DNA of 33,645 nt, from contig WAHY01000011.1 in NCBI GenBank assembly GCA_009873635.1, forward strand, positions 25,391 to 59,035. Reading direction: 5' to 3'. The translations under genes and the position numbers were made by a program. Of the stretch, positions 9,545-26,089 are shown one piece after another (position 1 is the first letter of the stretch; every line of letters starts with the position of its first letter). The notes beneath the pieces are model-generated. The model saw only the letters and a program-made list of their open reading frames with translations, ran no database searches and was not told the origin of the DNA. This DNA comes from Nitrospinota bacterium (GTDB lineage: Bacteria > Nitrospinota > Nitrospinia > Nitrospinales > VA-1).

Positions 9545-9574
9545 TTTTTACCTCAAATTCCTAATCAAGATTTA

Positions 9575-10359: not shown

Positions 10360-10854
10360 CTATCTCCAGCCACCCCCCTGTGTGATTTTATCCCTGACTT
10401 CAGGAACATGTGCAATATTGACCTTAGAATTATCAAATTCACCACGCACGAGACGAACACTTGAGTTGAGAACATCATCAACTTCCTTATGCCCCCCTGC
10501 ACCACTGCTAAAAGAATAAACATAGGCCGTAATCTTACCTCTAGTATTGCTGGTCCATGTGTCATGGCCACAACCTTCAGCAAACGCCGAGTCAATATGC
10601 ACAAACATATCGTATTTATCTTTCAGGTTTTTATCTGTATCAAAAAGGGAATGCGCCTCTCTTTTATTAGGTAACCGCCAGTCCTGATAACCGGCAAAAG
10701 ATTGTTCATTTTGTTTATTCAGATATTTCAAAGCAGCCGTATAACTGACGAATCTCAGAAGGTCCAGATACGAGTCATTTTTCTTCCACATCAATTGAGT
10801 GAGGTTATCACTTACCGTCCCGTCCCCATTATCTATAAACCTGTTGTCGCTCAT
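10360..10854 (-). CDS. DUF1566/Lcl_C domain protein, separate unit
   Basis: A 164-residue DUF1566 protein close to the family consensus: FIDNGDGTVSD, LMWKKNDSY, FAGYQDWRLPN, REAHSLFD, HIDSAFAEGCGHDTWTS and SSVRLVRGE, then a 25-residue tail. AGGG lies five bases before the ATG. No signal peptide. It is separated from the seven-gene run by 341 bases downstream and from the secreted-protein gene by a strong terminator upstream, so it is probably transcribed on its own or with its own promoter. Confidence 0.9.
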   Translation of the reverse strand: MSDNRFIDNGDGTVSDNLTQLMWKKNDSYLDLLRFVSYTAALKYLNKQNEQSFAGYQDWRLPNKREAHSLFDTDKNLKDKYDMFVHIDSAFAEGCGHDTWTSNTRGKITAYVYSFSSGAGGHKEVDDVLNSSVRLVRGEFDNSKVNIAHVPEVRDKITQGGGWR

Positions 10855-10924
10855 AATTACCCTATTCCAAATTTACAAATTATGTCTTATTTTATTCTTC
10901 CTGCTGGATAAAATCCAAAAAAAA

Positions 10925-10949
10925 AGCCGGGGGGCAAAGCCCCCCGGCT
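10925..10949 (-). terminator. Strong intrinsic terminator after the small secreted protein gene
   Basis: A perfect 10-bp stem (AGCCGGGGGG / CCCCCCGGCT) with a CAAAG loop is followed on the minus strand by nine T. It ends transcription of the gene at 10963-11475. Confidence 0.93.
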
Positions 10950-10962
10950 ATAAAACTAAATA

Positions 10963-11475
10963 TTAACGGTTAACTTCACCGGTGTTTCCGCCACCAGAAC
11001 CATTTCCATTCTGGCTGAAGAGACCACGCTCGGTACCTTCAGGCTGACCCATACCCGGCTCAATGTATGTTCCAGGCCTAACATGATCCATATGGTAGTT
11101 ACTCTGATAGGTCTTATGAGAACCAGCATCTTTTTTCCACTCAACGCGGTTAGCGTTTTCAACACGGTGAGCTTGGCAATTTACGATGATATCGCCAGGC
11201 CCTTTGTTGTCAAATGTGCTTTTTGGCTCCAAAGAATTTGCCAAGAACCCACCAGGCTCCAAAGTCCGGTCAAAATTCTTGTTCCAAGAATAGCCTAAAG
11301 TCCCAACATTGATATGGACAACCGTTGATTCGGTCTCACTCAGGTTTTCAATAACCCAGCTCGCATTGAGACATGCAGATTTGCCACCAGCTTTAACGGT
11401 AGAAACGTTTGCGCTAGCAACTGAAACAGAAAATACAAAAAATACTGCCAATAAAGTTACTACGGTTTTTCTCAT
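10963..11475 (-). CDS. Small secreted protein, unknown
   Basis: The 170-residue product starts with a clear Sec signal peptide (basic MRKTVV, hydrophobic core, cleavage near ASA/NV at residue 22). The mature part has two cysteines (C35, C100), which could form a disulfide, and ends in a Gly/Asn/Ser-rich tail. The frame extends to 11508, but the ATG at 11475 has GGGGGAG five bases upstream and starts exactly at the signal peptide. The strong ribosome binding site, candidate promoter and strong terminator suggest a well-expressed single gene. I recognise no family. A structural envelope protein is one possibility; a substrate of the nearby radical SAM enzymes is speculation. Confidence 0.85.
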   Translation of the reverse strand: MRKTVVTLLAVFFVFSVSVASANVSTVKAGGKSACLNASWVIENLSETESTVVHINVGTLGYSWNKNFDRTLEPGGFLANSLEPKSTFDNKGPGDIIVNCQAHRVENANRVEWKKDAGSHKTYQSNYHMDHVRPGTYIEPGMGQPEGTERGLFSQNGNGSGGGNTGEVNR

Positions 11476-11779
11476 TTTGCTCCCCCTTTCGAAGCTTAAT
11501 AAAAACAACTTTAAAAAAAACTCTATTTAATATCATCCTCTTCGGTGATTCGTACTCATTTCCTTAAATCCGCCTATCTTAAAGACATAAGCAAAACGGC
11601 AGATTTTCCCCTCTAAACCTCTCGGTCTGGCTAGGGTGAGCTGAAAATATCAAATGCCCCCAAGGAAGTCAAGCCTTTAATACCCACCCAGATATCCGGA
11701 AAAAAACTCCTTATTTTTCAATGGGATAAAAACCCAAAAACTCCCAGTAATTTGAGCCTGAAATCATGTATTTCGACTT
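11476..11779. other. Intergenic leader of the secreted-protein gene
   Basis: No gene is seen. On the minus strand it would carry the end of the leucine-rich-repeat transcript and the promoter and leader (about 160 bases) of the secreted protein. No convincing terminator hairpin is visible for the former. Confidence 0.45.
11644..11672 (-). promoter_or_regulatory. Putative sigma70-type promoter for the secreted protein gene
   Basis: On the minus strand TTGACT (11667-11672) and TATTTT (11644-11649) are separated by 17 bases. The -35 matches the consensus at five of six positions and the -10 at four. Confidence 0.4.
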
Positions 11780-12175
11780 TTAAACTCTAAATTTCAAAGA
11801 CGTCAGTTTTATAAGATCAGTGGAATTTCTGAGTATCTTTTCGCCTTCCTCAGAAATATCATTAACCACCAACTGCAAACTTCTAAGATTAGTTAAGGTT
11901 TTAGATGTCGCTAGATATTTGGCCCCAACATCACTGATACTATTTGAGGCAAGGTTAAGGGTTCGGACATTAACGAATAACTCTGATTCGGCAATAGCCT
12001 TGACCCCTTCATCCCCGATGTTGTTCTGCGAGAGATCCAAAGCACGGACGCTTTCCATGATTTCTTTTTCAGCCAACTCCTTCGCACCAACTTCCCTCAG
12101 GAACTGAGCTTTCAAGCTCAAAACCTGGCCATCCTTACTCAACCGGTCCCGGATTAAATCATCCAACCTTGACAT
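11780..12175 (-). CDS. Leucine-rich repeat protein (RNI-like)
   Basis: This 131-residue protein holds at least three leucine-rich repeats of the ribonuclease-inhibitor type: RALDLSQNNIGDEGVKAIAES (about 44-64), RTLNLASNSISDVGAKYLATS (about 71-91) and RSLQLVVNDISEEGEKILRNS (about 98-118). These fold as a short curved solenoid used to bind proteins. The N-terminal 40 residues are helical and charged. No signal peptide. GGGAG lies six bases before the ATG. It follows the TPR gene by 20 bases, so radical SAM, TPR and LRR genes appear to form one transcript. Confidence 0.85.
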   Translation of the reverse strand: MSRLDDLIRDRLSKDGQVLSLKAQFLREVGAKELAEKEIMESVRALDLSQNNIGDEGVKAIAESELFVNVRTLNLASNSISDVGAKYLATSKTLTNLRSLQLVVNDISEEGEKILRNSTDLIKLTSLKFRV

Positions 12176-12195
12176 AACACACTCCCAGTAAAATT

Positions 12196-13005
12196 TTACC
12201 CGGCACCCGGGATTTCCTTGGCAACAAACCCGTATTCATCGTAAATACTATAACCTTCCTGAATCATCTTTTTCCCATATTTGACCATCAGATTGGCCTG
12301 GGTGTGATTAGGATCTATATCGATGGTTTTCTTAAGATATTTCAACCCCTGCTTGATATCTTTGATTTCGTCACCATAGTTTTCTATCTGACGTGCCTTA
12401 TCAAACAGATCAGAAGCCCATTTGTAATAAACAGTGGCAATTTGTTGGGGAGCGTTCTTGCTAATGTACTCCACAATTTCCTCATCGGCTTTCAACTTCG
12501 AGATATCCTGGACAGCCGCCTCAAACTCACGCAAAGGAATGGCATAATCGTCATCATTCACCGATGATATCGTATTCATTTTCTTGTGAGCCGAATGCAA
12601 GCCAACAGAACTTTTTACAACTGTGGACTGAATCCCCGACATCAATTGTTGATAATAAAGATTACCGATACCAAAGTGAATGATCGAGCTGAACTCCTGA
12701 TTTGTATCCAGCAATAGGGCCTGCTCAAAAGATTCTCGCGCTTCCTCAACTTGCCCCAATTCTGAAAGAGCTTCCCCTAGGTTGTAATGATGCACGCAGT
12801 TATCGGGGTCTTCTTCAATCTGTTGCCGGAAGGTCGCAACCTGATCTTCGAGGTCAAACTCAACCTCTTCTTCCTCATCATCGTCAAACTCTGAATCTTC
12901 AGGTTCTTCAGTCTCCCCCGCATCTCCCACATCAGGCTGCAGTTCAGCGCTTTCCTTCGATTCTTCTATTTCTTTAGATTCTTGTTCTTTTTCTTCTTCG
13001 CTCAT
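12196..13005 (-). CDS. TPR protein with acidic N-terminus
   Basis: The 269-residue product starts with about 60 very acidic residues (MSEEEKEQESKEIEESKES). A tetratricopeptide repeat follows (HYNLGEALSELGQVEEARESFEQALLLD), then a less regular helical region and another TPR-like unit near the end (GLKYLKKTIDIDPNHTQANLMVKYG). TPRs bind partner proteins. The ATG at 13005 is two bases past the stop of the radical SAM gene, so translation is probably coupled. An upstream in-frame start at 13044 would overlap that gene. Possibly an adaptor for the radical SAM enzyme; inferred from position only. Confidence 0.87.
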   Translation of the reverse strand: MSEEEKEQESKEIEESKESAELQPDVGDAGETEEPEDSEFDDDEEEEVEFDLEDQVATFRQQIEEDPDNCVHHYNLGEALSELGQVEEARESFEQALLLDTNQEFSSIIHFGIGNLYYQQLMSGIQSTVVKSSVGLHSAHKKMNTISSVNDDDYAIPLREFEAAVQDISKLKADEEIVEYISKNAPQQIATVYYKWASDLFDKARQIENYGDEIKDIKQGLKYLKKTIDIDPNHTQANLMVKYGKKMIQEGYSIYDEYGFVAKEIPGAG

Positions 13006-13007
13006 AA

Positions 13008-14027
13008 TCAAACACAATAAGGGGGAATGCCCTCTTCCACCCATACTCCCGCTTTGCCATTTTTTATATTCTGATGATTTTTTAACGCTCCTGAAACCAT
13101 CTTTTCCCGAGACACCTCAATCTGCCGCATGATCTCATCCGGCGAGTCGTTTAACAAGTTACCAAATTTGGGCTTGCACTTCAGGTTGCCCACATCACAA
13201 CAAGGTGTGATTTCACCGGTTTGCTGTACAGTAACAATCTCAATGGTACCTCGGGGAATGGTACATTCCAGAAAGTTTATATCTTTGGGAAAAGGCTGGG
13301 CGTTCATGGCTCTATCACCTTTTTCATCCACATAAAATCCGGGAATCATGTTCAAACCAAAAGTAAAATTGTCCGTACAAATATAATTTTCCGCACCCTC
13401 CATATGCCTCAGGAAGGTATCTTCATCACATTCCGGGTTTTCCCGAATTATTTTTTCAAGTTTTGAACGATAGGTTCCCAGCAAACCAATTACAGAATCA
13501 AAATCTTTTTCCAGTTCCTCAAAAAAAGTGATCAAAATATCAATCTGGTTTAACAGGTCCGGCACTTTTTCAAAGATCATGTTGACGATCAATTCGTCTT
13601 GCAACACCAGAATCTCTTTAAGCAGAGCCTTTTGCCTGGACTCCCATACTGTTGGATAGAGGGTAAAATCCACTCGTCCGGATAATTTCATGATTTCGAC
13701 CAACCTGAGCCAACGTTTCGATTCCGTTGAATTGATATCCAGGTTTGTGTGAATACGTACGTTTGGCGTTAGGGTTTTAAAAATCTTGAAAATTTCAACA
13801 ATATGTGGATTTTGGGAAGGCTCCCCACCTGTCAGATTAATTTCCCTCCTGGCCAATTCACGGAAAACATCTATCTGGAGAATTTTATCCACCATGGCCT
13901 GAGCCTGCTCGGGCATTAAATGCCAATCACTCTTGGGTATCTGCCTGAGCGGTTCGTAGACATGGCAATACTGGCATTCATCCCGCACATAACGATTGCA
14001 ATTGGCTTCGGCAAAAATATTTATCAT
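13008..14027 (-). CDS. Radical SAM enzyme with Cx7CxxC motif and C-terminal cysteine domain (copy 1)
   Basis: The product (339 residues) has a radical SAM core: C10NRYVRDEC18QYC21, a Cx7CxxC spacing instead of the usual CxxxCxxC, and the SAM-binding NLTGGEP (64-70). The C-terminal half resembles SPASM/Twitch domains, which hold extra iron-sulfur clusters: C255, GEITPC276C277DVG, C284, FGNLL, DSPDEI and C338 as the next-to-last residue. Such enzymes often modify peptides or proteins. It is a paralog of 21581-22600, aligning end to end without gaps, with all nine of these cysteines (including C200) shared. AGAGG precedes the ATG. It leads the TPR and LRR genes. The substrate is unknown. Confidence 0.9.
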   Translation of the reverse strand: MINIFAEANCNRYVRDECQYCHVYEPLRQIPKSDWHLMPEQAQAMVDKILQIDVFRELARREINLTGGEPSQNPHIVEIFKIFKTLTPNVRIHTNLDINSTESKRWLRLVEIMKLSGRVDFTLYPTVWESRQKALLKEILVLQDELIVNMIFEKVPDLLNQIDILITFFEELEKDFDSVIGLLGTYRSKLEKIIRENPECDEDTFLRHMEGAENYICTDNFTFGLNMIPGFYVDEKGDRAMNAQPFPKDINFLECTIPRGTIEIVTVQQTGEITPCCDVGNLKCKPKFGNLLNDSPDEIMRQIEVSREKMVSGALKNHQNIKNGKAGVWVEEGIPPYCV

Positions 14028-14124
14028 AACCTCTGCCCTACTGAAAAATCCGGATCACTACCAGTCTATCAAAGTGCTAAACGGTACTTTATACAAAATG
14101 CAAAAAGTTTATTTATAAGCAATC

Positions 14125-14775
14125 TTATCTGGCAGCAAGGCCCGGATCTGTATCCAAAATATTTCTCACTGGCCTGATGGTAGACAAAGAAAGGTGATAC
14201 TGCCCTCCCCCTCTCATGCTCGGGTAGTCTTTACCACCAATATAATTAAATCCCCAGGCATACTTATCTTTATAAGTTTCACTCGACCAAAAACAACAAT
14301 GCGAATAACCAAAAATAGGATCGATATGAATTACATTTTCGGTCCAATAATATTTCCAGGGAATTTCTTTTTCTTCTTCATAAAGGGTTCTAAGCTCCTT
14401 GCGTGTCGGCAATCGCCAGTCTGAGTAGCTTGCGTACGCTTCTTTATTAAAGCTTTCTATCAGTTTCTGAGATTCATCCCAGCTAGACCATATTTTTTTT
14501 TCCTGATACAAGTCTATTTTCTTCCACATCAGCTTTGTTTTCAGGTCGGTGACAGTGCCGTCTTTATTATCCTGAAATCTCGGATCATTAGAAGGTGTTA
14601 GTGGGGGCTTTTCTTCTGTAAGCGAAAGAATCTGACCGCCAAATATTTCGTCCGTACTGTTGTTACCAGAATCAGCATGCACACTAATCGGCACACACAC
14701 TGCCAACACTAGAAAAACAAGCTGAAGGGACTTAAACAATGAGTGGAAAAATCGAATCATGCTTTTGGGGATCAT
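14125..14775 (-). CDS. Secreted or membrane-anchored DUF1566/Lcl_C protein
   Basis: The only DUF1566 member here with an export signal. From the ATG at 14775 the first 34 residues are a basic start plus a long hydrophobic stretch (SLQLVFLVLAVCVPISVHA) with a probable cleavage after VHA. The domain follows: DNKDGTVTD, LMWKKIDLY, YASYSDWRLPT, KELRTLYEE, HIDPIF, CFWSSETY and STIRPVRNI. The longer frame to 14913 overlaps the upstream NHL gene; the chosen ATG has AGGA about ten bases before it and lies 34 bases after the NHL stop. The product probably sits in the periplasm or outside the cell. Confidence 0.87.
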   Translation of the reverse strand: MIPKSMIRFFHSLFKSLQLVFLVLAVCVPISVHADSGNNSTDEIFGGQILSLTEEKPPLTPSNDPRFQDNKDGTVTDLKTKLMWKKIDLYQEKKIWSSWDESQKLIESFNKEAYASYSDWRLPTRKELRTLYEEEKEIPWKYYWTENVIHIDPIFGYSHCCFWSSETYKDKYAWGFNYIGGKDYPSMRGGGQYHLSLSTIRPVRNILDTDPGLAAR

Positions 14776-14809
14776 TAAAAGGTTTCCTGAAAATAGGTCT
14801 ACGAAATGT

Positions 14810-15802
14810 CTATTCTTCCTGCGGTGCCCAATCAGGTTCCCATGACAAGCAAATACCGGATGGATTATAAAATTGACCCGGGTCCTTTCCAACAATTCCC
14901 CATTTGGAGACAAAGTTCAGGTCCGGGTCAAATTTCTGTATTCTCTGGTTCAAAGTATCGACGACAAATACATAGCCATATGGATCTTCCACCACCGAGA
15001 CCGGACAATTGAACTGACCATCTCGCTTTCCTGCTTCACCAAGAACATCCAGAGGGTGTCCTTCCCGGTCAAAAAGTTGAATTCGGTTCTGGCTTTTCTC
15101 AGAAACCATAATGGTTCCATCTCTTCGCACAGCAATTCCTGTTGGGAAATTCAATCTGCCCACTTCGAATCCATACTCACCAAATTTAGACAGGAATTGT
15201 CCATCTTCATTAAAAATCTGAATGCGCTGATTATCACGATCGGCCACATAAATATTCCCCTCCCGATCAAGAGCTAAACCAACGGGGAACTTCATGAATC
15301 CATCAAAGTTTCCCGCAAACCCGAAACTAAGAATAAAATCACCGTCGCTATCGTACCTTTTGACACAATGGTTGGAAGTATCCGCCACCAGAATAGTCCC
15401 AGTAGGCTCCGCAACAATTTGCTCAGGCATGTAAAACTTATCCTGCCCCCATCCCTCACTGCCAAATTCGAGAAAAAAATCGCCATCGGAGTCAAACTTT
15501 TGCAAACGATGACAACCCGTATCGACAACCCAGATATATCCCTCATTGTCTACTGCCACTCCACTGGGGGTCTTAAATTCCCCTGGAATATAAGGAGGGC
15601 GGGTGCCGCCAGATTTTCCAAAATGCATCAGAAGATTGCCATTGCCATCGAATTTCTGGATCCTGTCATTACCAGAATCAGCCACCCAGACATAGAGTTG
15701 ACTGTGGTCAACCTCCGGTTTTTCCTCGGGGAGGGTCTCCTCAACGCCCACAACATCCAGCGCCTGAGACGGAATCTCCTCATTGTTTTCCGTATCTTCC
15801 AA
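14810..15802 (-). CDS. NHL-repeat beta-propeller protein (copy 1)
   Basis: Six NHL repeats make up nearly the whole protein, each with a core such as VWVADSGNDRIQKFD, VVDTGCHRLQKFD, VADTSNHCVKRYD and VADRDNQRIQIFN; together they should close a six-bladed propeller used for protein or ligand binding. A short acidic leader precedes them and there is no signal peptide. The frame runs back to a GTG at 15877, but that stretch overlaps a terminator hairpin; a TTG at 15802 (LEDTENNEEIPSQ) has AAAGG six bases upstream and gives an acidic start like its neighbours, so I prefer it. The secreted DUF1566 gene follows 34 bases downstream. Confidence 0.85.
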   Translation of the reverse strand: MEDTENNEEIPSQALDVVGVEETLPEEKPEVDHSQLYVWVADSGNDRIQKFDGNGNLLMHFGKSGGTRPPYIPGEFKTPSGVAVDNEGYIWVVDTGCHRLQKFDSDGDFFLEFGSEGWGQDKFYMPEQIVAEPTGTILVADTSNHCVKRYDSDGDFILSFGFAGNFDGFMKFPVGLALDREGNIYVADRDNQRIQIFNEDGQFLSKFGEYGFEVGRLNFPTGIAVRRDGTIMVSEKSQNRIQLFDREGHPLDVLGEAGKRDGQFNCPVSVVEDPYGYVFVVDTLNQRIQKFDPDLNFVSKWGIVGKDPGQFYNPSGICLSWEPDWAPQEE

Positions 15803-15850
15803 AACTAACCTTTCTTCCCTGAACCGGGAGAAATTAAACTCCAAAATAAG

Positions 15851-15874
15851 AAAGAGCCCCGAAAGGGACTCTTT
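15851..15874 (-). terminator. Intrinsic terminator after the helical protein gene
   Basis: The stem AAAGAG-C-CCC / GGG-A-CTCTTT, with one mismatch and a four-base loop, is followed on the minus strand by the T-rich CTTATTTT. It lies between the gene at 15955-16557 and the NHL gene and overlaps the longest possible reading frame of the latter. Confidence 0.7.
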
Positions 15875-15954
15875 CACACTACATCAGCAAACTTATTGTT
15901 CCAGAAAAAACCGAGTGCCCATCCACAACACAACACTTGGAAATGAAACAAGGC

Positions 15955-16557
15955 TTATTTAATATGAAAACCCTTCACATCCAGAATCTGGTATTCGAAG
16001 TCACAGGTTTTTTGCAGTTCATCGAGCCTTTCATTCCAATTTTTCTTGAAGTTATCCAGACTTTCAGATTTAGGTTTCTTTTTCATCAGATCAACTTCGC
16101 GATACAGAGGTTTCACCATATTCTTATAAACCAGTTGAATTATATTCCTGAGATTAAGAATACATTGTTTGGTAACCTCTTCGCGGGTTACACCATCAAC
16201 TTTTTCGAGAAGGCGCAGAAACGACTGGATAGTAGTGATCTGAACGGTATAGCTTTCTGCCAACCTGTGGTCATATTTTAAACCACAGTCAATATATGCT
16301 GGCATGAGGAACATACCTATATGATGATCAAATTTAACGGAAAGAGTGATCAGCTTTTGCAGATAGTCAACTTCCCGCAAATCCTCTTCTTCATCCTCAC
16401 CTTCAGCCAGCTCCTTGGTGGCTTTTTCTTTTTCTTTTTGAAGCTCGAGTTTTATTTTCTCCAACTCGTTCAAATCAGAAAGATGGTCGACCTCTTTTTC
16501 TTCGGCAGCTTCTCCACCTTCAGGGTTTTGCTTAGTTTCAGTATCCTGTTCGCTCAA
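15955..16557 (-). CDS. Acidic helical protein, unknown
   Basis: The first 65 or so residues are charged, Glu/Lys-rich and likely coiled coil (LNELEKIKLELQKEKEKATKEL). The rest is predicted helical with conserved-looking hydrophobic positions (YLQKLITLSVKFDHHIGMFLMPAYIDCG). No signal peptide and no known domain. The start is a TTG with AAGGAAGGAG seven bases upstream; no ATG fits. It has its own promoter (16622-16651) and terminator (15851-15874), so it is probably a single-gene unit at the head of the minus-strand block, divergent from the B12 radical SAM gene. Confidence 0.82.
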   Translation of the reverse strand: MSEQDTETKQNPEGGEAAEEKEVDHLSDLNELEKIKLELQKEKEKATKELAEGEDEEEDLREVDYLQKLITLSVKFDHHIGMFLMPAYIDCGLKYDHRLAESYTVQITTIQSFLRLLEKVDGVTREEVTKQCILNLRNIIQLVYKNMVKPLYREVDLMKKKPKSESLDNFKKNWNERLDELQKTCDFEYQILDVKGFHIK

Positions 16558-16621
16558 CGCAAGTCTCCTTCCTTACAAGGGTAAAACAATACTTTTAAAA
16601 GAGTTTTGGGAATTGTCAGTA

Positions 16622-16651
16622 AGTATAAGCCTTTTTCCCGGAAAGTGTCAA
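16622..16651 (-). promoter_or_regulatory. Sigma70-type promoter for the helical protein gene
   Basis: On the minus strand a perfect TTGACA (16646-16651) is followed after 18 bases by TATACT (16622-16627). Transcription would start near 16614, leaving a leader of about 57 bases. The -35 context GCAGTTGACA also occurs in the promoter at 18886-18914. Confidence 0.6.
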
Positions 16652-16769
16652 CTGCTAGCACAGTGTAACCTTCGGTGGCAATTGGACAAAAGCTCGTGAA
16701 TGGGAGGCTACAGGAAATGGCTTTTTAAGCCCACGGCTCGTTTTGCTCGCCAACCAGACTCATTGCACG

Positions 16770-16797
16770 TTGCCCCCACGGCTAGTGGTGGTATACT
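16770..16797 (+). promoter_or_regulatory. Putative extended -10 promoter for the B12 radical SAM gene
   Basis: TGGTATACT gives an extended -10 (TATACT at 16792-16797). TTGCCC lies 16 bases upstream as a weak -35. The leader to the ATG at 16871 would be about 66 bases. Confidence 0.45.
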
Positions 16798-16870
16798 CTT
16801 TTGTATCAAGACCTTAATTAATAAAACCGGTTCCATGAAACCATCTGGAGCCTGAAAGAATTTTTATATC

Positions 16871-18667
16871 ATGAAAACCGCTCTGCTGTTTCCACCGCAA
16901 TGGTATCCCAGCCAGCCCTATCTTGCTCTTCCTACCTTGAAGGCGCACCTGGAGTCGAAGGGACATGAGGCAGACCAGTTTGACTTTAATATAGAAAGTT
17001 ATGAAATTTTCCTGTCAAAAAACTACCTGAATCATTGTGTGGAGATTGTCCGGGAACGGTTATCCGCTCCGGCCTATAAAACCGAGGAACAGGAAGTCAA
17101 ATCCGTTTACCGGGATATTTTGTCAGACACAGGGTTTCTGGATTCCGTTCTGAATGAAGTGGAAGATGCAAAAAATGTCCTGCGGGATGAAGTACGGTTC
17201 TTCCAGTTTGAAACTTACAAAAAGGCATACACCACCCTGAAAATAGCCATGAAGCTCATTTCCTACGCCCACTTCCCAAGTCGGCTGGATCTGGACTCAT
17301 TTTTCATGATGGGGAATCCTGAAGAAAACCTTGCAGGAATTCTATCTGCCACGGCTGACACAGTCCGAAACCCTTTCATCCGCATGTATGAAGATTACCT
17401 GATAGATAAAGTCGATTGGAACGATTACAGGCTGGCGGGATTATCCATCATCCATATCGGACAGGTCATACCCGGGCTGACCCTTGCACGACTGTTGCGT
17501 AAAAAGTTCAAGCATCTACACATCGTCATTGGTGGAAGCGTGTTCAACCGCCACGCCGACCTCCTCAATAACAAGCAGGCATTGTTTGAAGAATTTTTTC
17601 ATAGTGCCATCGTCTCCGAAGGGGAAAAGCCTCTAGAAGAACTGGTCAACCATCTCAAAGAAGAAAAGCCCTTGTCGACCGTTCCCAACCTGATTTATAT
17701 GGAAGAGCAAAAGGTCATTCACAACCCTAAAGTCGAAGCCCTTCCTTACGAGCAATTGGTGTGCCCGTCTTTCGACCAGTTGCCACTTGAAAAATATTTA
17801 ATGCCTTACCCGGTTTTGCCCTATATGTCCAGTCGGGGTTGTTATTGGGGCAAATGCACGTTCTGCACACATAGTTTTATTTACGACTCCTATTACCGCA
17901 AAGAAAACGAAACACGGGTGGCGGAAGAAATCGGTTATCTCGGGAAAAAATATAAGACCAAATATTTTACATTTTCTGACGAAGCCATTTCCCCCAACGC
18001 GTTCAACCGCATGTCCAAAGCCATCCTGAAACAGGGGGTGGAAATGCGCTCCCTGGGTATGCTCAAGTTTGAATCGGGGGACAAGGAATCGCCGGAGCTT
18101 TTTGAAGATGTCTATAAGGCCGGATTCCTCATGCTGTTTTTTGGACTGGAAAGTGCCAACGACCGTATACTTTCCATCATCGACAAGGGTTGTGACCAGG
18201 AAACAGAACGGAGCGTATTGAAAAACAGTTCCGATGCCGGTATCTGGAACCACCTTTACTTGTTTTTCGGGTTTCCCACTGAGGAACGTGATGAAGCGGA
18301 AGAAACCATCCAGTTCACCGTTGAAAACTCAGAAGTCGGCACCGGCACCGTCCACTCGGTCGGGCAATCCATTTTCGCTTTGGAAAAAGATTCCGCCATC
18401 TACCACAATCCTGGCAAATTCAAAATCGACCGCATCATTCACGATCCGGACCGCGACATGGCTATTGTGTTCGACTTTGACATTAAAGCAGGGATGTCCC
18501 GGGATGAAGTGATGGAGGTCTACGAAAACTTCGATTCCGTGATTGAAGACACCTTCCCCTCCCGCGCTATCTGGAACTATCTGTCACGCGAACACTTCCT
18601 GCTCTACCTCGATCACTTCGGTAAAGAAGAAATTCTCAATATGGCAAAGACAACAACAAGCCAATAG
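16871..18667 (+). CDS. B12-binding-domain radical SAM protein
   Basis: This 598-residue protein starts like the cobalamin-binding radical SAM family (ALLFPPQWYPSQPYLALPTLKAHLESKGH), with a Rossmann-like stretch near 185-225 (LSIIHIGQVIPGLTLARLL, HIVIGGSVF). The radical SAM motif is C324YWGKC329TFC332, a CX4CX2C spacing, followed by TFSDEAISP and GLESANDRIL, typical of the B12 class. Members often methylate unreactive carbons or remodel lipids, cofactors or peptides. No signal peptide. It has a probable promoter of its own and starts the plus-strand block; a repeat-filled gap of 306 bases separates it from the TPR gene. The substrate is unknown, and binding of B12 itself is inferred. Confidence 0.88.
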   Translation: MKTALLFPPQWYPSQPYLALPTLKAHLESKGHEADQFDFNIESYEIFLSKNYLNHCVEIVRERLSAPAYKTEEQEVKSVYRDILSDTGFLDSVLNEVEDAKNVLRDEVRFFQFETYKKAYTTLKIAMKLISYAHFPSRLDLDSFFMMGNPEENLAGILSATADTVRNPFIRMYEDYLIDKVDWNDYRLAGLSIIHIGQVIPGLTLARLLRKKFKHLHIVIGGSVFNRHADLLNNKQALFEEFFHSAIVSEGEKPLEELVNHLKEEKPLSTVPNLIYMEEQKVIHNPKVEALPYEQLVCPSFDQLPLEKYLMPYPVLPYMSSRGCYWGKCTFCTHSFIYDSYYRKENETRVAEEIGYLGKKYKTKYFTFSDEAISPNAFNRMSKAILKQGVEMRSLGMLKFESGDKESPELFEDVYKAGFLMLFFGLESANDRILSIIDKGCDQETERSVLKNSSDAGIWNHLYLFFGFPTEERDEAEETIQFTVENSEVGTGTVHSVGQSIFALEKDSAIYHNPGKFKIDRIIHDPDRDMAIVFDFDIKAGMSRDEVMEVYENFDSVIEDTFPSRAIWNYLSREHFLLYLDHFGKEEILNMAKTTTSQ

Positions 18668-18728
18668 TCCATAAAAGTGGATGAAAACAAGTAAATCATC
18701 AATCCAGTTAAGTATTGTCGCCTTTCGC

Positions 18729-18749
18729 GTGGCAGTTGACAGGTGAGGG
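18729..18749 (+). repeat. Direct repeat, copy 1
   Basis: A 21-base sequence containing GCAGTTGACA, identical to 18879-18899. It includes TTGACA at 18736-18741, but no -10 follows at a suitable distance. A related CACGCCCAGTGGC lies at 18774-18786. Confidence 0.75.
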
Positions 18750-18852
18750 AACGGGTAGTTCGTTCATTGCCCTCACGCCCAGTGGCCCCTTGGCAGGGGA
18801 AGCAGATCGAAATTGATTCTAAGCCGAGAGAGATACTTTTCAGCCAACAAAA

Positions 18853-18907
18853 GCCATTGCTCACTGGCCCCACGCCCAGTGGCAGTTGACAGGTGAGGGG
18901 CAATGGC
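18853..18907. repeat. Imperfect palindromic element around repeat copy 2
   Basis: GCCATTGC at 18853-18860 and GCAATGGC at 18900-18907 are inverted. The arms extend inward with TCAC/GTGA, apart from a three-base bulge. Inside are CACTGG/CCAGTG, CACGCCCAGTGGC (18871-18883, also at 18774-18786) and the second 21-base direct repeat (18879-18899). It looks like a REP- or MITE-like short element. Confidence 0.6.
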
Positions 18908-18914
18908 CTAGAAT
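18886..18914 (+). promoter_or_regulatory. Sigma70-type promoter for the TPR-methyltransferase-radical SAM operon
   Basis: A perfect TTGACA (18886-18891) and TAGAAT (18909-18914, five of six) are spaced by 17 bases, with a leader of about 53 bases to the ATG at 18974. The -35 lies inside the palindromic element and the -10 just outside it. Confidence 0.6.
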
Positions 18915-18973
18915 TTAAAATTCACTAAGCGAAACATTTTGAATTCAGAACCTTTTAGAGAGAGTTAATTGAT

Positions 18974-20098
18974 ATGGGTGAAGCTGGCAAGCCGACAGAC
19001 TGGATCACGATGAAAATCGATCCGGAAATTTTTGAGGAGCTGGGTGTACGCGACCCGGAAGTGACCAAGCGTGAAATGGCGATACAAAAGAAAACCCGCC
19101 AGGTCACCAAGGAACTGAAAGCCGACCCCGACAATATAGACCTGCAAATTGAGTTGGCTACCCTGATGATCGATGGTGCCAACTACGAAGAAGCGATCAA
19201 ACAACTGCTGGCCATTCGCAACAAGGCTCCCAAAAACGCCCGGGTCTACAAACTGCTCGGTACCGCATACGTATTGTTCAACCATGAGGAAGAAGCCCTG
19301 ATCGAACTCAACCGGGCCTGTGAACTGGATCCGAACGATCCGGAAAATCACTTCAATCTCGGTGGACTCTATCTGCTTCGGGACATGTTCACAAATGCCG
19401 CGGACTCGTTTGAGAAAGTCATTGAGCTGGACCCCACTGACACAACGGCTTACGCCAACCTCGCGGCGGCTTACGATATGCTCAAACTTTATGACAAGGA
19501 AATCATAGCTCTCAGAAAGGTGTTGATGTTCAACCCGGAAGACAAGGAGCTCCGCGCCGCCTTGTCCAACGCTTATTTTCATGCCCAACGCTATGAAGAA
19601 GCGATTGACGCCGCCTTGTGCGTTGTGGATGTTGACGATAAAGACCCGCAAGCCTACTGCAACCTGGGTAGTTGTTATTCAGTCAGAAACATGGTGGACG
19701 ATGCCATCGCGTCTTTCAAAAAAGCCAGCGAACTCGCTCCCGATTATTCCCTGCCGCACACCAACCTGGGGACCCTCTATGCAAACATGGGCAGGCCTGA
19801 AGCCGCGATCAAATCATTCAAAACAGCGGTGAGCCTGAACCCGGCAGATGCCGGAGCCTGGTTCAGCCTGTACAACTGCTATAAAGAAGTCGGTTTGATG
19901 GATGACTCGCAGGAGGCCTACAAGAAATATGAGGCACTGATGAATGAGCCCGAACCTGTTGCGACTGAAGGCGGAGACAACCCTGCCAATATCCCCGGTG
20001 GTGTTTCTCAAACCAGCAAGTACGCTGGGGGTGGCAGCATGGAAGGAAATGCACCCGGCATGGAATCATTGGCAGATGCCGATGACGACCCCAGATAA
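18974..20098 (+). CDS. TPR-repeat protein
   Basis: A 374-residue protein built from about eight tetratricopeptide repeats between residues 55 and 330 (for example AYVLFNHEEEALIELNRACELDP, YANLAAAYDMLKLYDKEIIALRKVL and LGTLYANMGRPEAAIKSFKTAVSLNP). The N-terminal 50 residues are charged and the C-terminal 50 are Gly/Pro/Asp-rich and flexible. No signal peptide. It probably acts as a protein-binding scaffold. The methyltransferase gene begins 19 bases after its stop, so both belong to one operon, and the arrangement echoes the TPR gene next to radical SAM copy 1. Confidence 0.92.
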   Translation: MGEAGKPTDWITMKIDPEIFEELGVRDPEVTKREMAIQKKTRQVTKELKADPDNIDLQIELATLMIDGANYEEAIKQLLAIRNKAPKNARVYKLLGTAYVLFNHEEEALIELNRACELDPNDPENHFNLGGLYLLRDMFTNAADSFEKVIELDPTDTTAYANLAAAYDMLKLYDKEIIALRKVLMFNPEDKELRAALSNAYFHAQRYEEAIDAALCVVDVDDKDPQAYCNLGSCYSVRNMVDDAIASFKKASELAPDYSLPHTNLGTLYANMGRPEAAIKSFKTAVSLNPADAGAWFSLYNCYKEVGLMDDSQEAYKKYEALMNEPEPVATEGGDNPANIPGGVSQTSKYAGGGSMEGNAPGMESLADADDDPR

Positions 20099-20117
20099 AC
20101 TTCCCTGAAACCCTGTC

Positions 20118-21497
20118 ATGACCCATCCAAACCTGGTTTCGCTTGGGGATTTCAAGCCTTCTGACTTTTGGGCGACCCATGTTAACTCGATCTTCTACGG
20201 TATCAAGGGCCCAGAAATCCATAACCATTTCCAAACTTATGTAAGTCTGGACTATCGTCTGGCCCATGCGATAGCCAATGACTTTTTCAACAAGGCCAGG
20301 AACCAGGAGCGCCCAGAAAGTGGCAAGTGGCTGGTGCAGGAATGGGGAGTCGGCAACGGCAACCTGGCCGCGTGCTTTCTCAGTCACCTGCGGGAATTAG
20401 ACAGTGATAGCGAAGTCTACCCTTTCGTCTATTACATCCTTTGCGATGAGTCCGAAGAAATTTTAAAAGGTGTGCGAAAAAATACCCGCCTGATGGAACA
20501 CGAGGGGAAATTTGCCACCGTTCGTGTCCACGCCGAGCATATGGATTGTTTTAAGCCTCACTCCATATCAAAAATCATCACCAACGAGATTTGGGACGAC
20601 CTGGCAACAAAAGTCCTTTTGAAACACCAGGGACTTTATTATGAAGAATATCTCTGCCCTATGCTTGATGCGGGAGCACTCCCTTCGGAAGCATTCGTTG
20701 AACAATTTAACAACAAGGACCTCAATGAGCTTTGCAAACTCCCAAATTTTCTCGACACCATTTACTGGGAACGGGATTTTCAAAGGGTCGATTTAAGCGA
20801 CTTGCCTTTTGCCGAAACTATGAAGGCACACGCCGAAGAGTTTAAAGATGAAATTCCCATGCCCATCAATACGGGAGCATTTTCTACCATCAAAAAAGCA
20901 AAGGAACTTTTAGGCCCGGTAAATTTTGGTTACACCAGTTTTGATTACGGTATGAAAACCTTAAAAGACCTCAACCACGAAGGGCGACCCTATTTCAATC
21001 TGTACGGCGGACAATATACTTTCATGGTGAACTTTCCCCTGCTGGAAAATATCGGCAGGTCTATAGGTTTCGCAGATATCACCCGCGAATACCAGAATCA
21101 GTTTGTGGCGAAAGACCTGGGGTCTGACGTTGTCAGCCTGGTAGACCTGGTGCAAAACCATCCGCATGTAGCAAGCATGGCACCTTGGGACAGGGACGTA
21201 TTGATGTTGAGCACTCTCAACGCACTCAATACCGTTTACAAAAGCCCATACTCTGGCAAACTCAACTACCCGGCGATGGAAGGCACCCCTAAAAAACAAA
21301 GAAAGCAAATCGCCCAACTGGCTAAAAACCTTAGCAGCCGGGGTGTTCCCGATACTGTAGCCTATGTCACACGCGAGGAAGTGCTCTCTGCTTTGAGACC
21401 ACTCCGGAAACTGGGCTACAGGGAAAAAGATATCCAGACTGCTTTTCAAACTCCTCCTCCGGGTATTTCATTCGTTCATATGCAATTCACCTTATAG
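20118..21497 (+). CDS. MidA/NDUFAF7-like SAM-dependent methyltransferase
   Basis: The 459-residue protein has a class I methyltransferase glycine loop (EWGVGNGNLA, residues 75-84), then YYILCDESEEIL and ITNEIWDDLATKVLL (NEIWDDL at 156-162), in the positions where MidA-family proteins have ELGPGxG and NEFFDAxP. MidA/NDUFAF7 enzymes methylate a protein arginine in respiratory complex I. The match is by pattern only and quite diverged. No signal peptide. It lies between a TPR gene and radical SAM copy 2, with no clear ribosome binding site of its own, so coupling to the TPR gene is likely. The target may be a protein, but this is not shown. Confidence 0.72.
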   Translation: MTHPNLVSLGDFKPSDFWATHVNSIFYGIKGPEIHNHFQTYVSLDYRLAHAIANDFFNKARNQERPESGKWLVQEWGVGNGNLAACFLSHLRELDSDSEVYPFVYYILCDESEEILKGVRKNTRLMEHEGKFATVRVHAEHMDCFKPHSISKIITNEIWDDLATKVLLKHQGLYYEEYLCPMLDAGALPSEAFVEQFNNKDLNELCKLPNFLDTIYWERDFQRVDLSDLPFAETMKAHAEEFKDEIPMPINTGAFSTIKKAKELLGPVNFGYTSFDYGMKTLKDLNHEGRPYFNLYGGQYTFMVNFPLLENIGRSIGFADITREYQNQFVAKDLGSDVVSLVDLVQNHPHVASMAPWDRDVLMLSTLNALNTVYKSPYSGKLNYPAMEGTPKKQRKQIAQLAKNLSSRGVPDTVAYVTREEVLSALRPLRKLGYREKDIQTAFQTPPPGISFVHMQFTL

Positions 21498-21580
21498 CGG
21501 GCCAGCCCCACAGGTAAAGTTGACAATTTCATCTTGCGCGCAGAAACTGTAATTTATTTAGTGGAGTTGGAGTTTTTACA

Positions 21581-22600
21581 ATGCTCAGTATTTTTGTCGA
21601 AACCAGTTGCAACCGGTACAACCGGGATGAATGCGTCTCGTGTCATGTATATGAACCGTTGATGGAGCACCCGGTCTCACAATGGCACCTGACGACAGAG
21701 CAGGCCAGGAGCATGGCCGAAAAAATAAGAAACGTGGATGTGCTCAATCAACTGGCTCAACAGGAAATCAACCTGACCGGTGGAGAAGCCACACAAAATC
21801 CTGACATTGTTGAGATCTGCAGAATTTTTCAATCCGTAACCCCGCACGTTTGCCTTCATACCAATCTTGATATTCTTTCAGAGAAATCGAAGCGCTGGCA
21901 CAGACTGCTGGAAATAATGAAACTCGGGGCAAGGGTGGATATCACCCTCTACCCGACAGCGTGGGAAAGTTCACAAAAATATTTTCTTGGAGAAATGCTG
22001 AGACTGCAGGACAAACTGATCGTGAATGTGGTGTATGAATCGTTGAGTGATTTGCAAAACCAGATAAACCTTTTGCTGAGTTTTTTCATTGAGAAAGGGT
22101 CGACCTATTCACATGTGACAGAGTTACTCAAGACCTACGCGGACAAAATAGCCACCCTGACTAAAGAACACCCTGACTGTGATGAAAAAATGTTCACCAT
22201 GCATTTGGGTGATACCGAAGCCTTTGCCCGCAATCCAGAGTTCACGCTGGGATTGAGCTTGTTGCCGGCATTCAATGTTGACGATAACGGGCAACGGTCC
22301 ATGACCTCGATGCCTTTCCCAAAAGATCAGTATTTCATTGGCTGCCCTGCCGCCAGAGGCTCTATAGACATCATGACAATTCAACAGAATGGTGAAATGA
22401 CCCCCTGTTGTGATGTCGGGAATTTAAAATGCCAGCCAAAGTTCGGCAACGTATTGACCGACAGTCCCGAAGAAATCATGGCGAAGATGGAAACATCTAT
22501 GAAAGTACTGGCATCAGGAATCCAGAAAAACCATGAAAACCTGAAAACAGGAAAAGCCGGACAACTGGTAGAAGAAGGAATCCCCCCCTACTGCCACTGA
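21581..22600 (+). CDS. Radical SAM enzyme with Cx7CxxC motif and C-terminal cysteine domain (copy 2)
   Basis: Paralog of the enzyme at 13008-14027: same 339-residue length, alignable from end to end without a gap. It has C10NRYNRDEC18VSC21, NLTGGEA (64-70, with Ala where copy 1 has Pro), C200, C255, GEMTPC276C277DVG, C284, FGNVL, DSPEEI and the closing PPYCH with C338. The conserved cysteines support one radical SAM cluster plus at least one auxiliary cluster. GGAG lies eight bases before the ATG. It ends the plus-strand operon after the methyltransferase. Function unknown; peptide or protein modification is the usual role of radical SAM enzymes with this type of C-terminal domain. Confidence 0.9.
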   Translation: MLSIFVETSCNRYNRDECVSCHVYEPLMEHPVSQWHLTTEQARSMAEKIRNVDVLNQLAQQEINLTGGEATQNPDIVEICRIFQSVTPHVCLHTNLDILSEKSKRWHRLLEIMKLGARVDITLYPTAWESSQKYFLGEMLRLQDKLIVNVVYESLSDLQNQINLLLSFFIEKGSTYSHVTELLKTYADKIATLTKEHPDCDEKMFTMHLGDTEAFARNPEFTLGLSLLPAFNVDDNGQRSMTSMPFPKDQYFIGCPAARGSIDIMTIQQNGEMTPCCDVGNLKCQPKFGNVLTDSPEEIMAKMETSMKVLASGIQKNHENLKTGKAGQLVEEGIPPYCH

Positions 22601-22709: not shown

Positions 22710-24311
22710 TTAAGCCGAGGGAAGTTCTCCCGGTGGGACTTCTTCTTCCTCTTCTTCGAAGAAATCATCTTCCTCGTCATCGTCACCGATCAACAGGTTT
22801 TCATCTTCGACAACAAGTTCCTCGAATTCTTCTTCCTCTTTTTCTTCTTTCGGGTATGGGAGCTCATCCCAAATCACGATGCGTGAGTTACCCCGGTCGC
22901 AAATGAACAACTTGAATTTTGGTTGAGGCTCTTCTTCTTCCGCGGCTTCTCCATCAGTTGCCGCCAGGGAAGTTTCTTCCTCATCGTCATCCGGCAGGGG
23001 AACACCGCGGAACTCTTCTTCATCATCCTCCACATCGATCAGCAACAAACCATAAGGATCGTTCAATGTAAAGCTGGTGGCGTCTTCCTGACCCCGGTTT
23101 ACTTTATTTTCGGTGAAAGTGGACTGGCCAAGCACAAGGTCAGCGGGTTGCCCATTCTCAGTGGGAAGTTCTTTCCAGTACAAGACACGGTTGTTACCGG
23201 TATCAGCGACAAACAAACCGGCTTCACCATAAACCACATCAGTAGGAAAATAGAATCCATCGGCTGAAGGCCTGTGATGACCGTTACCCCGGTTAGGCTC
23301 CCGGCTGAAAAAGTCTTTTTGTCCAATCACCACATCAGCAGCGACACCTGTTTCTCTGGGAATTTTGTTCCAGATCAATACCCGGTTATTTCCCTGATCC
23401 ACAACGATCACGCGCTCACCTTCAGCGTCGAAGTGCACTCCTGTGGGAAAGCTCAGGGTATCAGGCCCTACATTTTCGAAGTCACCCTGATTGGGCCAGC
23501 GCTCATCCATTCCCTTTTGCCCCAGTGAAACATCTGCGTTCCAGCCATCACTGAAAGGGATTTTGTTCCAGATCAATACCCGATGGTTGTCCTTGTCGGC
23601 AACCAGCACGTGCTGGTCGTCGCCAGAGTGGATGCCCATAGGGAAAAACAATGAACCCGAGCCGACAAAACCCCGGCGGTTTGCTTCATTATCATCAAGA
23701 TTATCCTGCCCAAGCACAAGGCTTGGAGCTTCGCCATCTTCAGAGGGAATTCCACTCCATCTCAACACCCTGTGGTTGCCACTATCCACCACATAAAGCT
23801 TTCCATCAATCACATCAATACCCGCAGGTTGAGATAGCGTATCCTCCTCCGACTTACTGATGGTGAATCCATCGAGACTCTCATCACCCAGTCCAGAAGT
23901 CATTTCATCCAGGGTTGTAGTCATACCCCGGTTTTCAAGGCAGTCAGCAAAATCTTCCTGTCCCAGGACCAATGATGCCGGCTCTCCATTTTCCTCAGGA
24001 AACTGCTCCCAGATCACCACCCGGTGGTTGCCCCTGTCAGAGACAAACAATAAATCGCCATAAACCGTAACGTATTGCGGCTCACAAAGCGTGTTGTCGC
24101 CAGGGTCATCGGCTCCCCGATTCGCCTGGGTCATGGAAAAGTCACCCTGGCCGATTACCAGAAAGGCCCCGGTTTCCGGCTCTTCCTCTGGCGCAACCTC
24201 ATCCTGTTCGTCCAGCTCATCTGATTCGTCTACCTCATCCAAATCCATTTCATCGTCTTCGGACACGCTCAACGAATCATCGGTTTCTTCCAATTCATTT
24301 TCATCTGACAT
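22710..24311 (-). CDS. NHL-repeat beta-propeller protein with acidic ends (copy 2)
   Basis: The protein has six NHL units, each with VxDxGNxRVxxW (for example VSDRGNHRVVIWEQFP and VADTGNNRVLYWKELP) joined by LVLGQxxF...NRG linkers, forming a propeller of a subtype distinct from copy 1. The first 50 residues and the last 50 are extremely acidic (Glu/Asp runs), and a third acidic insert lies before the last blade. No signal peptide. The frame reaches a TTG at 24326, but that TTG overlaps the GGAG serving the ATG at 24311, which I take as the start. It converges on the radical SAM operon. Role unknown; likely a binding scaffold. Confidence 0.9.
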   Translation of the reverse strand: MSDENELEETDDSLSVSEDDEMDLDEVDESDELDEQDEVAPEEEPETGAFLVIGQGDFSMTQANRGADDPGDNTLCEPQYVTVYGDLLFVSDRGNHRVVIWEQFPEENGEPASLVLGQEDFADCLENRGMTTTLDEMTSGLGDESLDGFTISKSEEDTLSQPAGIDVIDGKLYVVDSGNHRVLRWSGIPSEDGEAPSLVLGQDNLDDNEANRRGFVGSGSLFFPMGIHSGDDQHVLVADKDNHRVLIWNKIPFSDGWNADVSLGQKGMDERWPNQGDFENVGPDTLSFPTGVHFDAEGERVIVVDQGNNRVLIWNKIPRETGVAADVVIGQKDFFSREPNRGNGHHRPSADGFYFPTDVVYGEAGLFVADTGNNRVLYWKELPTENGQPADLVLGQSTFTENKVNRGQEDATSFTLNDPYGLLLIDVEDDEEEFRGVPLPDDDEEETSLAATDGEAAEEEEPQPKFKLFICDRGNSRIVIWDELPYPKEEKEEEEFEELVVEDENLLIGDDDEEDDFFEEEEEEVPPGELPSA

Positions 24312-24346
24312 GAAACAATTCTCCAAATATATTGTTTACCAATTCA

Positions 24347-24490: not shown

Positions 24491-26089
24491 TTAAGGAAGT
24501 TCCACAGGTTTAAGCCTTTGCCACATGGAAATAACTTTCCGACCATTGCGATCCTGATGTTTTCCATCCCAAATCGCAAACGCTACTAAAATGGGGTTTT
24601 TTTTAATAAATTTTATATCCCATTTATTCAAAGAATCCAAGGTGCGAAAAAAAACAACGCGCCATTTTCCATCTTTCCATACCCCTTTGCCCAGCACATT
24701 CTGTTTGGTTTGAGGTTGAGGGGTCAACGTTCCAAACCCTTCTGCGTTCAATTCTTCCACGGGAACATCCCTGAACGGATTGAGCGAATCAACAGGGTTC
24801 ACCTCGCCCCCGAAGATCATGGTATCCATATCCATTCCCTTTGTGGCATATTCCAGCTTTTCCTTGGTTTCAATTTCCGTTTGCCAGTCTGCCCGCCACT
24901 GCCATATATTCACCACTTTACCCCTGTTTCCCATGCCAAAGAACGGTTCATTATGCCCGTGCTTATGCAACAATACATCACCCAGGGCGAACTCCATCGC
25001 AATAGCATCTTTAAAATCCTGATGACGGCTTGAAGTCCGATCCGGTTGAGGATCTTCCCATACCAGCCGGAAGGCTATCCCCTCGTCGTTCACAACAGAC
25101 TGAAACTGAATTTGGTCAACCGGGTCCCTGCGTGCATTAAGTGGAATTGTATGAATATTCTGGACCGGGATATTTGCCCACATTGGGTTAGCCGGATCCA
25201 TGTCTATTTCCTGGTCAACTTTGTAAGTATTCAGATCTATTTCATATTCTGCTGGTTTATATTCCTCTTTCCTTATTTCTGACTCTATATATGAAGCCAG
25301 ATCCCAGCGTTCTTCGTCTCTCAAATGGTTAAAAGATTTCATCGGGGTGCCATCAATCCCCGTTGTTAAAATCATAAACAAGTCTTTCTTATCAAATCCG
25401 AATTTATAAGTATTCGGGTCTGTCAGGTCATACACGAAAACCCGATGATCCCATATATCATAGAGGTCTGATGCAATAGGCCCGTCCCCCTTCAGATCCG
25501 TTCCATGGCAACGAGCGCAACTCGTTTGCTGATAGATTATCTTACCTTTTGCTATGGATTCAGGGGTCGATGCTGGAACTGCTTCTATCTTTATTGCATC
25601 TTTAGGCTTTTTATTTTCAAATTTTTTTGAGAATTTCTTGATGTACTCAACTACGCCAGAGATCTCATCTTCTGACAAGGCCCCTCCCCATGCAGGCATG
25701 GAAGTACCTGGAACACCGCGGGCAATGGTTCTTTTTATATCACTATCCTGCGGAATCGACCCAAAAGGAGTGGTCCTGTATTTAAACACACCTTGACGAA
25801 AGTCTCTGGGCCACGGGTAAAGGTAAGCCATTGCCTTACCTCCACCATTGCCATCCGCACCGTGGCAATATATGCACATGTGCTTGTAAACCGTGGCACC
25901 CAGGCGCAAGAGATCTTTCTCTCCGCCATGAGAAGAGGCGGAACCATTACTATGTTCTGATGGTCCATGAGCGTACACTGGCATTATTGCCAGCAAAGCC
26001 ACACTCAAAACCAGAAAAAGAATCAAACTTTTCTGGCTAACGCACCCCCAGACTCGGAGTTGAAAGCGTGTAAAGTTCTTCATTACCAT
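24491..26089 (-). CDS. Dihaem cytochrome c with ethylbenzene-dehydrogenase-type haem b domain (NxrC-like)
   Basis: A Sec signal peptide (residues 1-40, VYA/HG) is followed by two cytochrome c domains: CIYCH (C72, C75, H76) with likely Met ligand M131 in GTSMPAW, and CARCH (C191, C194, H195) with likely M250 in GTPMKSF. Residues about 285-525 resemble the EB_dh haem-b fold of DMSO-reductase-family gamma subunits (WANIP, AFRLVWEDP, WQWRADWQ). This layout is known for candidate nitrite oxidoreductase gamma subunits. It would pass electrons in the periplasm. No catalytic molybdenum subunit or FeS subunit lies nearby. The start overlaps the upstream secreted gene by 53 bases; a second ATG two codons later is equally possible. 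Confidence 0.88.
   Translation of the reverse strand: MVMKNFTRFQLRVWGCVSQKSLILFLVLSVALLAIMPVYAHGPSEHSNGSASSHGGEKDLLRLGATVYKHMCIYCHGADGNGGGKAMAYLYPWPRDFRQGVFKYRTTPFGSIPQDSDIKRTIARGVPGTSMPAWGGALSEDEISGVVEYIKKFSKKFENKKPKDAIKIEAVPASTPESIAKGKIIYQQTSCARCHGTDLKGDGPIASDLYDIWDHRVFVYDLTDPNTYKFGFDKKDLFMILTTGIDGTPMKSFNHLRDEERWDLASYIESEIRKEEYKPAEYEIDLNTYKVDQEIDMDPANPMWANIPVQNIHTIPLNARRDPVDQIQFQSVVNDEGIAFRLVWEDPQPDRTSSRHQDFKDAIAMEFALGDVLLHKHGHNEPFFGMGNRGKVVNIWQWRADWQTEIETKEKLEYATKGMDMDTMIFGGEVNPVDSLNPFRDVPVEELNAEGFGTLTPQPQTKQNVLGKGVWKDGKWRVVFFRTLDSLNKWDIKFIKKNPILVAFAIWDGKHQDRNGRKVISMWQRLKPVELP

Follow-up and report, generated by a model that had tools for sequence, protein, structure and literature searches.

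An unnamed Twitch radical SAM family with a lengthened cluster loop in Nitrospinales

Two radical S-adenosylmethionine (SAM) proteins of identical length, encoded some kilobases apart on a stretch of Nitrospinota DNA, raise the question of what class of enzyme they represent and what their unusual cysteine spacing means. The stretch analysed here (the window; 33,645 nucleotides, contig WAHY01000011.1 of assembly GCA_009873635.1, positions 25,391 to 59,035) comes from a 2.6 Mb genome, and its nearest named relatives are metagenome-assembled genomes of Nitrospina/Nitrospinaceae. Open reading frames and translations confirm the two 339-residue proteins that a first-pass annotation had picked out, to which we add the strands: rSAM_A, of clade A, lies on the minus strand (13008..14027) and rSAM_B, of clade B, on the plus strand (21581..22600). 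We conclude that both belong to an unnamed family of Twitch-type radical SAM proteins with a lengthened loop around the main cluster.

The two proteins align over 339 columns with zero gaps and 56% identity (191/339 positions). Common to both are C10, C18 and C21 in the arrangement C10-x7-C18-x2-C21, a TGGE motif (residues 66-69), and C200, C255, C276, C277, C284 and C338; C80 and C91 occur in rSAM_B only and C217 in rSAM_A only. Considered as a pair, the sharing of 9 of 11 cysteines is unremarkable because over half of all positions are identical (hypergeometric p = 0.07, not significant). The first-pass annotation had claimed strict conservation of nine cysteines, and this is borne out by 50 full-length homologues with identities down to 54% to copy B and 52% to copy A, in which all nine are invariant and the GGE motif is intact as part of an invariant TGGE. 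Overall 86/339 columns are invariant, and the chance of all nine cysteines falling among them is about 3e-6, a figure that takes no account of phylogeny or of how conservative cysteine generally is. When the set is altered slightly, to 54 sequences with fragments among them, C200 is replaced by Ala once and C338 reads X once. Four residues flanking the cluster cysteines (Y13, D16, E17 and H22) are likewise invariant across the 50 homologues. The ratio of nonsynonymous to synonymous substitution rates (dN/dS) is 0.07 for clade A and 0.10 for clade B, hence the family is under strong purifying selection, and these low values support the earlier suggestion that both proteins are working enzymes.

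The canonical Cx3CxxC motif is absent; all 50 homologues have Cx7CxxC instead. This does not exclude membership of the radical SAM superfamily, since the superfamily accepts variant spacings (PMC4389238). Translation places the cluster loop at 21608..21643 on the plus strand in rSAM_B (CNRYNRDECVSC) and at 13965..14000 on the minus strand in rSAM_A (CNRYVRDECQYC), and the motif CNRY(x)RDECxxC can be read as CNxxCxxC, the usual form, lengthened by four residues. In Pfam, the radical SAM model PF04055 matches rSAM_A above its cut-off (29.6 versus 29.5 bits) and rSAM_B below it (22.8 bits, E 1e-4), while the SPASM model PF13186 matches rSAM_B above its cut-off (22.6 versus 21.5 bits; residues 264-304) and rSAM_A below it. 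The profile search against radical SAM families that had been proposed as a check was run on NCBIfam and gave no named family at cut-off for either protein; scanning the 50 members produced weak matches only (best E about 4e-6), the models concerned being those for ArsS, viperin, MoaA and Twitch proteins. Sequence searches against solved structures, whether with a single protein or a profile, returned nothing meaningful.

What identifies the C-terminal part is its own cysteine pattern. The segment C255-x15-G271-x4-C276 is present in 50/50 homologues and corresponds to the published SPASM/Twitch signature CX9-15GX4C (PMC6231123), whereas the seven-cysteine SPASM pattern CX9-15GX4C-gap-CX2CX5CX3C-gap-C is found in 0/50. 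In rSAM_B the complete signature, C255-x15-G-x4-C276-C277-x6-C284, is likewise kept in 50/50 homologues and occupies 22343..22432 on the plus strand, followed at 22592..22594 by the invariant penultimate residue C338, a putative auxiliary-cluster ligand. From these motifs we assign the C-terminal part to the Twitch class rather than to the full SPASM domain; by published definitions a Twitch domain holds one auxiliary cluster (PMC6231123, PMC9012708). Because the signature is kept throughout the family, the proteins are likely to hold one or more auxiliary clusters, as the first-pass annotation had suggested.

AlphaFold2 models are consistent with this assignment (rSAM_B, m6a27ca479dea, mean predicted local distance difference test score (pLDDT) 87 and predicted TM-score (pTM) 0.87; rSAM_A, m9f6feec8f94b, pLDDT 86). 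Both contain a partial barrel of six strands, C10 coming right behind strand 1, the usual site of the first radical SAM cysteine, and a two-helix insertion (residues 174-209) that carries C200. After C255 the models place a beta-hairpin (strands 264-267 and 272-274) and then C276 and C277, with C284 before and C338 after a long helix (296-322); a beta-hairpin followed by a helix, with cysteines before and after, is the layout of a Twitch domain. With the GGE motif and six barrel strands, Foldseek matches to radical SAM enzymes place both proteins in the superfamily. Among structures in the Protein Data Bank, the best matches of both models are the Twitch/SPASM enzymes AbmM (best), SuiB, PqqE, SkfB, MoaA and EpeE, joined by BlsE for the copy B model (E-values of 3e-6 to 1e-3); TigE is a further Foldseek match.

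Comparison with characterised systems shows which of these features are shared. The proteins resemble Twitch/SPASM enzymes such as BtrN, AbmM, BlsE, MoaA and SkfB in their partial barrel, beta-hairpin, helix and CX9-15GX4C signature, and these enzymes provide their best fold matches, but they differ in having Cx7CxxC in place of Cx3CxxC, the two-helix insertion with its invariant C200, and the CC pair at 276-277. The spacing is real, yet it is already known from other enzymes. It has been published for PoyC, PoyB and the bottromycin methylases (PMC5682303, PMC11285071), which are B12-dependent C-methyltransferases; neither rSAM protein has a B12-binding match in Pfam at E <= 1 and both carry a Twitch domain instead, so the likeness is probably convergent. 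It also occurs in Jaw5-type polyketide cyclopropanases, in which C68, C76 and C79 are the predicted ligands of the 4Fe-4S cluster; unlike the rSAM proteins, Jaw5 has a HemN-like fold with a C-terminal domain, and a Twitch signature is not reported in the accessible portion of its description (PMC13389473). Neither the family searches nor the fold searches with the rSAM proteins brought up a Jaw5-type enzyme. In QueE the first spacing is expanded further, to Cx14CxxC, and the structure combines a single extended loop with canonical binding of the cluster (PMC4389238), but the QueE model spans about 220 residues without an auxiliary-cluster domain and gave weak matches only. The earlier statement that no named family bears this signature therefore holds in part: no NCBIfam family reaches its cut-off, but the Cx7CxxC element itself has precedents in the PoyC-type methylases and in Jaw5. 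For a Twitch enzyme we found no report of Cx7CxxC in the literature open to search. By analogy with these precedents, the simplest reading would be a canonical cluster geometry with a longer loop, rather than the unusual geometry that the first-pass annotation had suggested.

The two copies share a fold, a set of motifs, a pattern of conservation and a selective regime. On this basis we favour, with a probability of roughly 0.7, the reading that rSAM_A and rSAM_B are paralogous, unnamed Twitch enzymes of the Nitrospinales that combine a SAM cluster in a lengthened loop with an auxiliary cluster and carry out an oxidation or cross-link. Motif and topology suggest the cluster ligands: C10, C18 and C21 would hold an ordinary SAM-binding [4Fe-4S] cluster, the loop being four residues longer between the first two cysteines, and SAM would be cleaved to a 5'-deoxyadenosyl radical that abstracts a hydrogen from the substrate. 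BtrN has its four auxiliary ligands distributed in front of the hairpin, behind it and behind the helix (PMC6231123), a layout that makes C255, C276 and C338, together with either C277 or C284, the natural candidates for a second cluster. That cluster may take an electron from the substrate radical, or position it, giving net oxidation or a cross-link; the reaction type is suggested by analogy with BtrN, SuiB and PqqE, the role of electron acceptor or positioner having been demonstrated in SuiB and being argued to apply in BtrN and PqqE (PMC9012708).

Several points weigh against this reading. TM-scores against solved structures are mostly about 0.4-0.5, perhaps owing to the two-helix insertion at 174-209 or to wrong relative placement of the domains in the models, and the fold matches therefore tell to which class the proteins belong, not what they do. 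The loop carrying C10, C18 and C21 has a pLDDT below 50 in both models, the choice of fourth auxiliary ligand between C277 and C284 is ambiguous, and the substrate is a matter of analogy only.

The genomic surroundings bear on the choice of substrate. Across Nitrospinales one gene cluster is syntenic: its first part comprises NxrC-like, NHL2, rSAM_B where present, MT28, TPRb and a B12-type radical SAM gene, and its second part u200, NHL1, Lcl8, rSAM_A where present, TPRa, LRR, sec181 and Lcl7 to Lcl1. The NxrC-like gene encodes an alternative gamma subunit of nitrite oxidoreductase. Within this cluster rSAM_A and rSAM_B are optional passengers. Wherever rSAM_B is found in the cluster it sits between MT28, its conserved upstream neighbour (20118..21497, plus strand; a putative SAM-dependent methyltransferase, PF02636, at 23.4 bits against a Pfam cut-off of 23.3), and NHL2, an NHL-repeat protein by Pfam and likewise a conserved neighbour (22710..24326, minus strand). 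At ten loci that have no rSAM_B the distance between MT28 and NHL2 ranges from 9 to 1652 bp (within 112 bp at 5 of the 10); a search of these ten gaps for decayed copies detected none, and tiny C-terminal remnants of rSAM_B were seen only elsewhere (G019, G015). On the tree of the B12-type protein the presence of rSAM_B changes seven times, at least five of them on well-supported branches. The position of rSAM_A also varies: Lcl8 and TPRa flank it in the genus of the window, LRR and sec181 in genera g3 and g7. Two family f4 genomes (L006, L007, ~9600-11020) carry copy A off the cluster, with queF immediately upstream and groESL close by. A role in queuosine synthesis akin to QueE was considered on account of this neighbour and rejected, queF having been seen at no other copy-A locus and QueE lacking the C-terminal domain. 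A clade-B copy off the usual cluster (L071:9521-10213, genome G057) shares its stretch with nuo-like NADH-dehydrogenase genes and has a masked run of N nearby.

A search of 77 Nitrospinota genomes across the phylum recovered the family in 39 with a single query protein and in 40 with a profile, the fortieth match (53 residues, E 0.0024) lying in a genome of another taxonomic family within the same class and being left out of the membership; every clear member falls within the order Nitrospinales. Scanning 84,980 species genomes, a search that reaches close relatives only, gave matches in Nitrospinota alone, and the plasmid and viral-contig collections searched held no relatives. The family has thus been found only in Nitrospinales as far as searched, the sensitive profile having covered Nitrospinota alone. 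The five other SPASM proteins of the host genome are distant relatives of the family profile at best. Both copies occur together in 19 genomes, B alone in 14 and A alone in 5. Co-occurrence is enriched (Fisher p = 8e-4, uncorrected for phylogeny or genome incompleteness), but we reject an obligate A-B pair in view of the single-copy genomes, and with many genomes carrying one copy or none, the description of the enzymes as "twin" was overstated. For both copies, distances between the proteins rise and fall with those of their neighbours (r 0.90-0.98). This tracking, the low dN/dS and the presence changes together point to vertical inheritance with strong constraint while the gene is present and repeated loss, and because the gene is lost repeatedly its function is accessory.

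Of the two classes of substrate, we consider a peptide or protein slightly likelier than a small metabolite, neither reaching even odds. As maturases, the enzymes would oxidise or cross-link residues of a protein, perhaps one encoded in the cluster (of the TPR, NHL or Lcl type, or sec181, a secreted protein of 181 residues), in the manner of the SPASM/Twitch enzymes that mature ribosomally synthesised and post-translationally modified peptides (RiPPs). Many of the nearest folds are such maturases (SuiB, SkfB, EpeE, TigE). The operon of rSAM_B also encodes the putative methyltransferase MT28 and the B12-type protein, which combines B12-binding and radical SAM architecture (16871..18667, plus strand) and whose best NCBIfam model, TIGR03975, is that of a RiPP C-methyltransferase (110.8 bits, below the cut-off of 281.85). 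Its cluster motif is a non-standard Cx4CxxC (RGCYWGKCTFC) that is invariant in Nitrospinales orthologues. TPRb, a TPR protein by Pfam (18974..20098, plus strand), ends in a conserved PGGVS motif. In the form (N/G)(I/V)PGGVS it closes the protein at almost every one of some 40 Nitrospinales loci, with or without rSAM_B, and the adjacent B12-type protein may act on this tail. However, comparison of the TPRb and sec181 tails between genomes with and without rSAM_B revealed no consistent difference. RiPP maturases such as SuiB, SkfB and the sactisynthases have an N-terminal RiPP recognition element (RRE) and a precursor gene, whereas the rSAM proteins begin at barrel strand 1 and show no RRE or PqqD-like domain in Pfam. 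A precursor peptide gene adjoining rSAM_A or rSAM_B was looked for and not found; the intergenic gaps (83 and 110 bp around rSAM_B, 97 bp upstream of rSAM_A) leave no room for one beside either copy.

These last features also fit a Twitch enzyme acting on a small molecule, by oxidation or rearrangement of a sugar, aminocyclitol or nucleotide as in BtrN, AbmM, BlsE and MoaA, which we regard as a plausible if tentative alternative. An architecture without an RRE is that of the small-molecule Twitch enzymes, both models find their closest structural counterpart in AbmM, with MoaA and BlsE close behind, and rSAM_A changes its genomic context independently of the cluster. Yet the conserved neighbourhood of either copy contains no genes for sugar or nucleotide biosynthesis, and by structural score the enzymes that act on small molecules cannot be told from those that act on peptides. 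A more unusual proposal is that, in this Nitrospinales-only family, the lengthened and almost invariant loop from C10 to C18 (N-R-Y-x-R-D-E), the invariant C200 and the CC pair form a cluster site or substrate site unlike those of characterised Twitch enzymes, and that the family would perform an undescribed modification tied to the adjoining nitrite-oxidising electron-transfer apparatus; we think this improbable.

It is very unlikely that the proteins are degenerate, with C10 no longer a ligand and the auxiliary cluster alone bound: AlphaFold2 leaves the cluster loop unresolved in either model, but C10, C18, C21, GGE and the four flanking residues are invariant, and purifying selection is strong. 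Least credible of all is a viperin-like antiviral, nucleotide-modifying enzyme whose patchiness reflects defence turnover; although copy A scores best with viperin in NCBIfam (E 2e-5), PADLOC returns viperin and nothing else for either copy, and copy B has changed in presence at least 5-7 times, the scores (23.9 and 19.3 bits for NF038283 against a cut-off of 180, 13-23 bits for PADLOC pVip) are far too low, are limited to the generic N-terminal radical SAM half and are about equalled by MoaA and ArsS models, and a fixed metabolic cluster with vertical inheritance is unlike a mobile defence gene. We thus reject a viperin identity; prokaryotic viperin and ArsS, both among the top NCBIfam matches, score 19-24 bits, where the cut-offs stand at 180 and 300, and leave the C-terminal half unmatched. 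To our knowledge, neither a Twitch domain nor the cysteines CC-x6-C...C338 are features of viperin.

Other genes complete the picture of the window. Domain matches identify the alternative NxrC-like protein (24491..26089, minus strand) by an ethylbenzene-dehydrogenase heme-b domain (PF09459) and two cytochrome c domains, an architecture that matches alt_NxrC of Nitrospina gracilis (PMC3578206). TPRa, the conserved downstream neighbour of rSAM_A (12196..13044, minus strand; open reading frame and Pfam), overlaps it by 37 bp as called, an overlap that is doubtful because TPRa probably starts in reality at the internal ATG of MSEEEKE. On the minus strand (6282-14913), about eight proteins with an Lcl_C domain (DUF1566-like) form a run that keeps its order across Nitrospinales and is broken by a glutaredoxin-like protein and others. 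On the plus strand (30145-31308), a KamA-family radical SAM protein scores above the cut-off of TIGR00238 and below that of every named aminomutase in NCBIfam.

Uncharacterised radical SAM families are common, and the class of these enzymes is by itself unsurprising. What the present analysis adds is a clearly delimited family under strong selection that, within the range of the searches, is restricted to the main marine nitrite oxidisers and has a loop spacing for which the literature open to search gives no Twitch example. It offers a well-bounded target for spectroscopy, and its natural losses within genera permit comparison of strains with and without the enzyme. If the enzyme does modify a component of the neighbouring respiratory cluster, the finding would bear on how the nitrite-oxidation chain is assembled.

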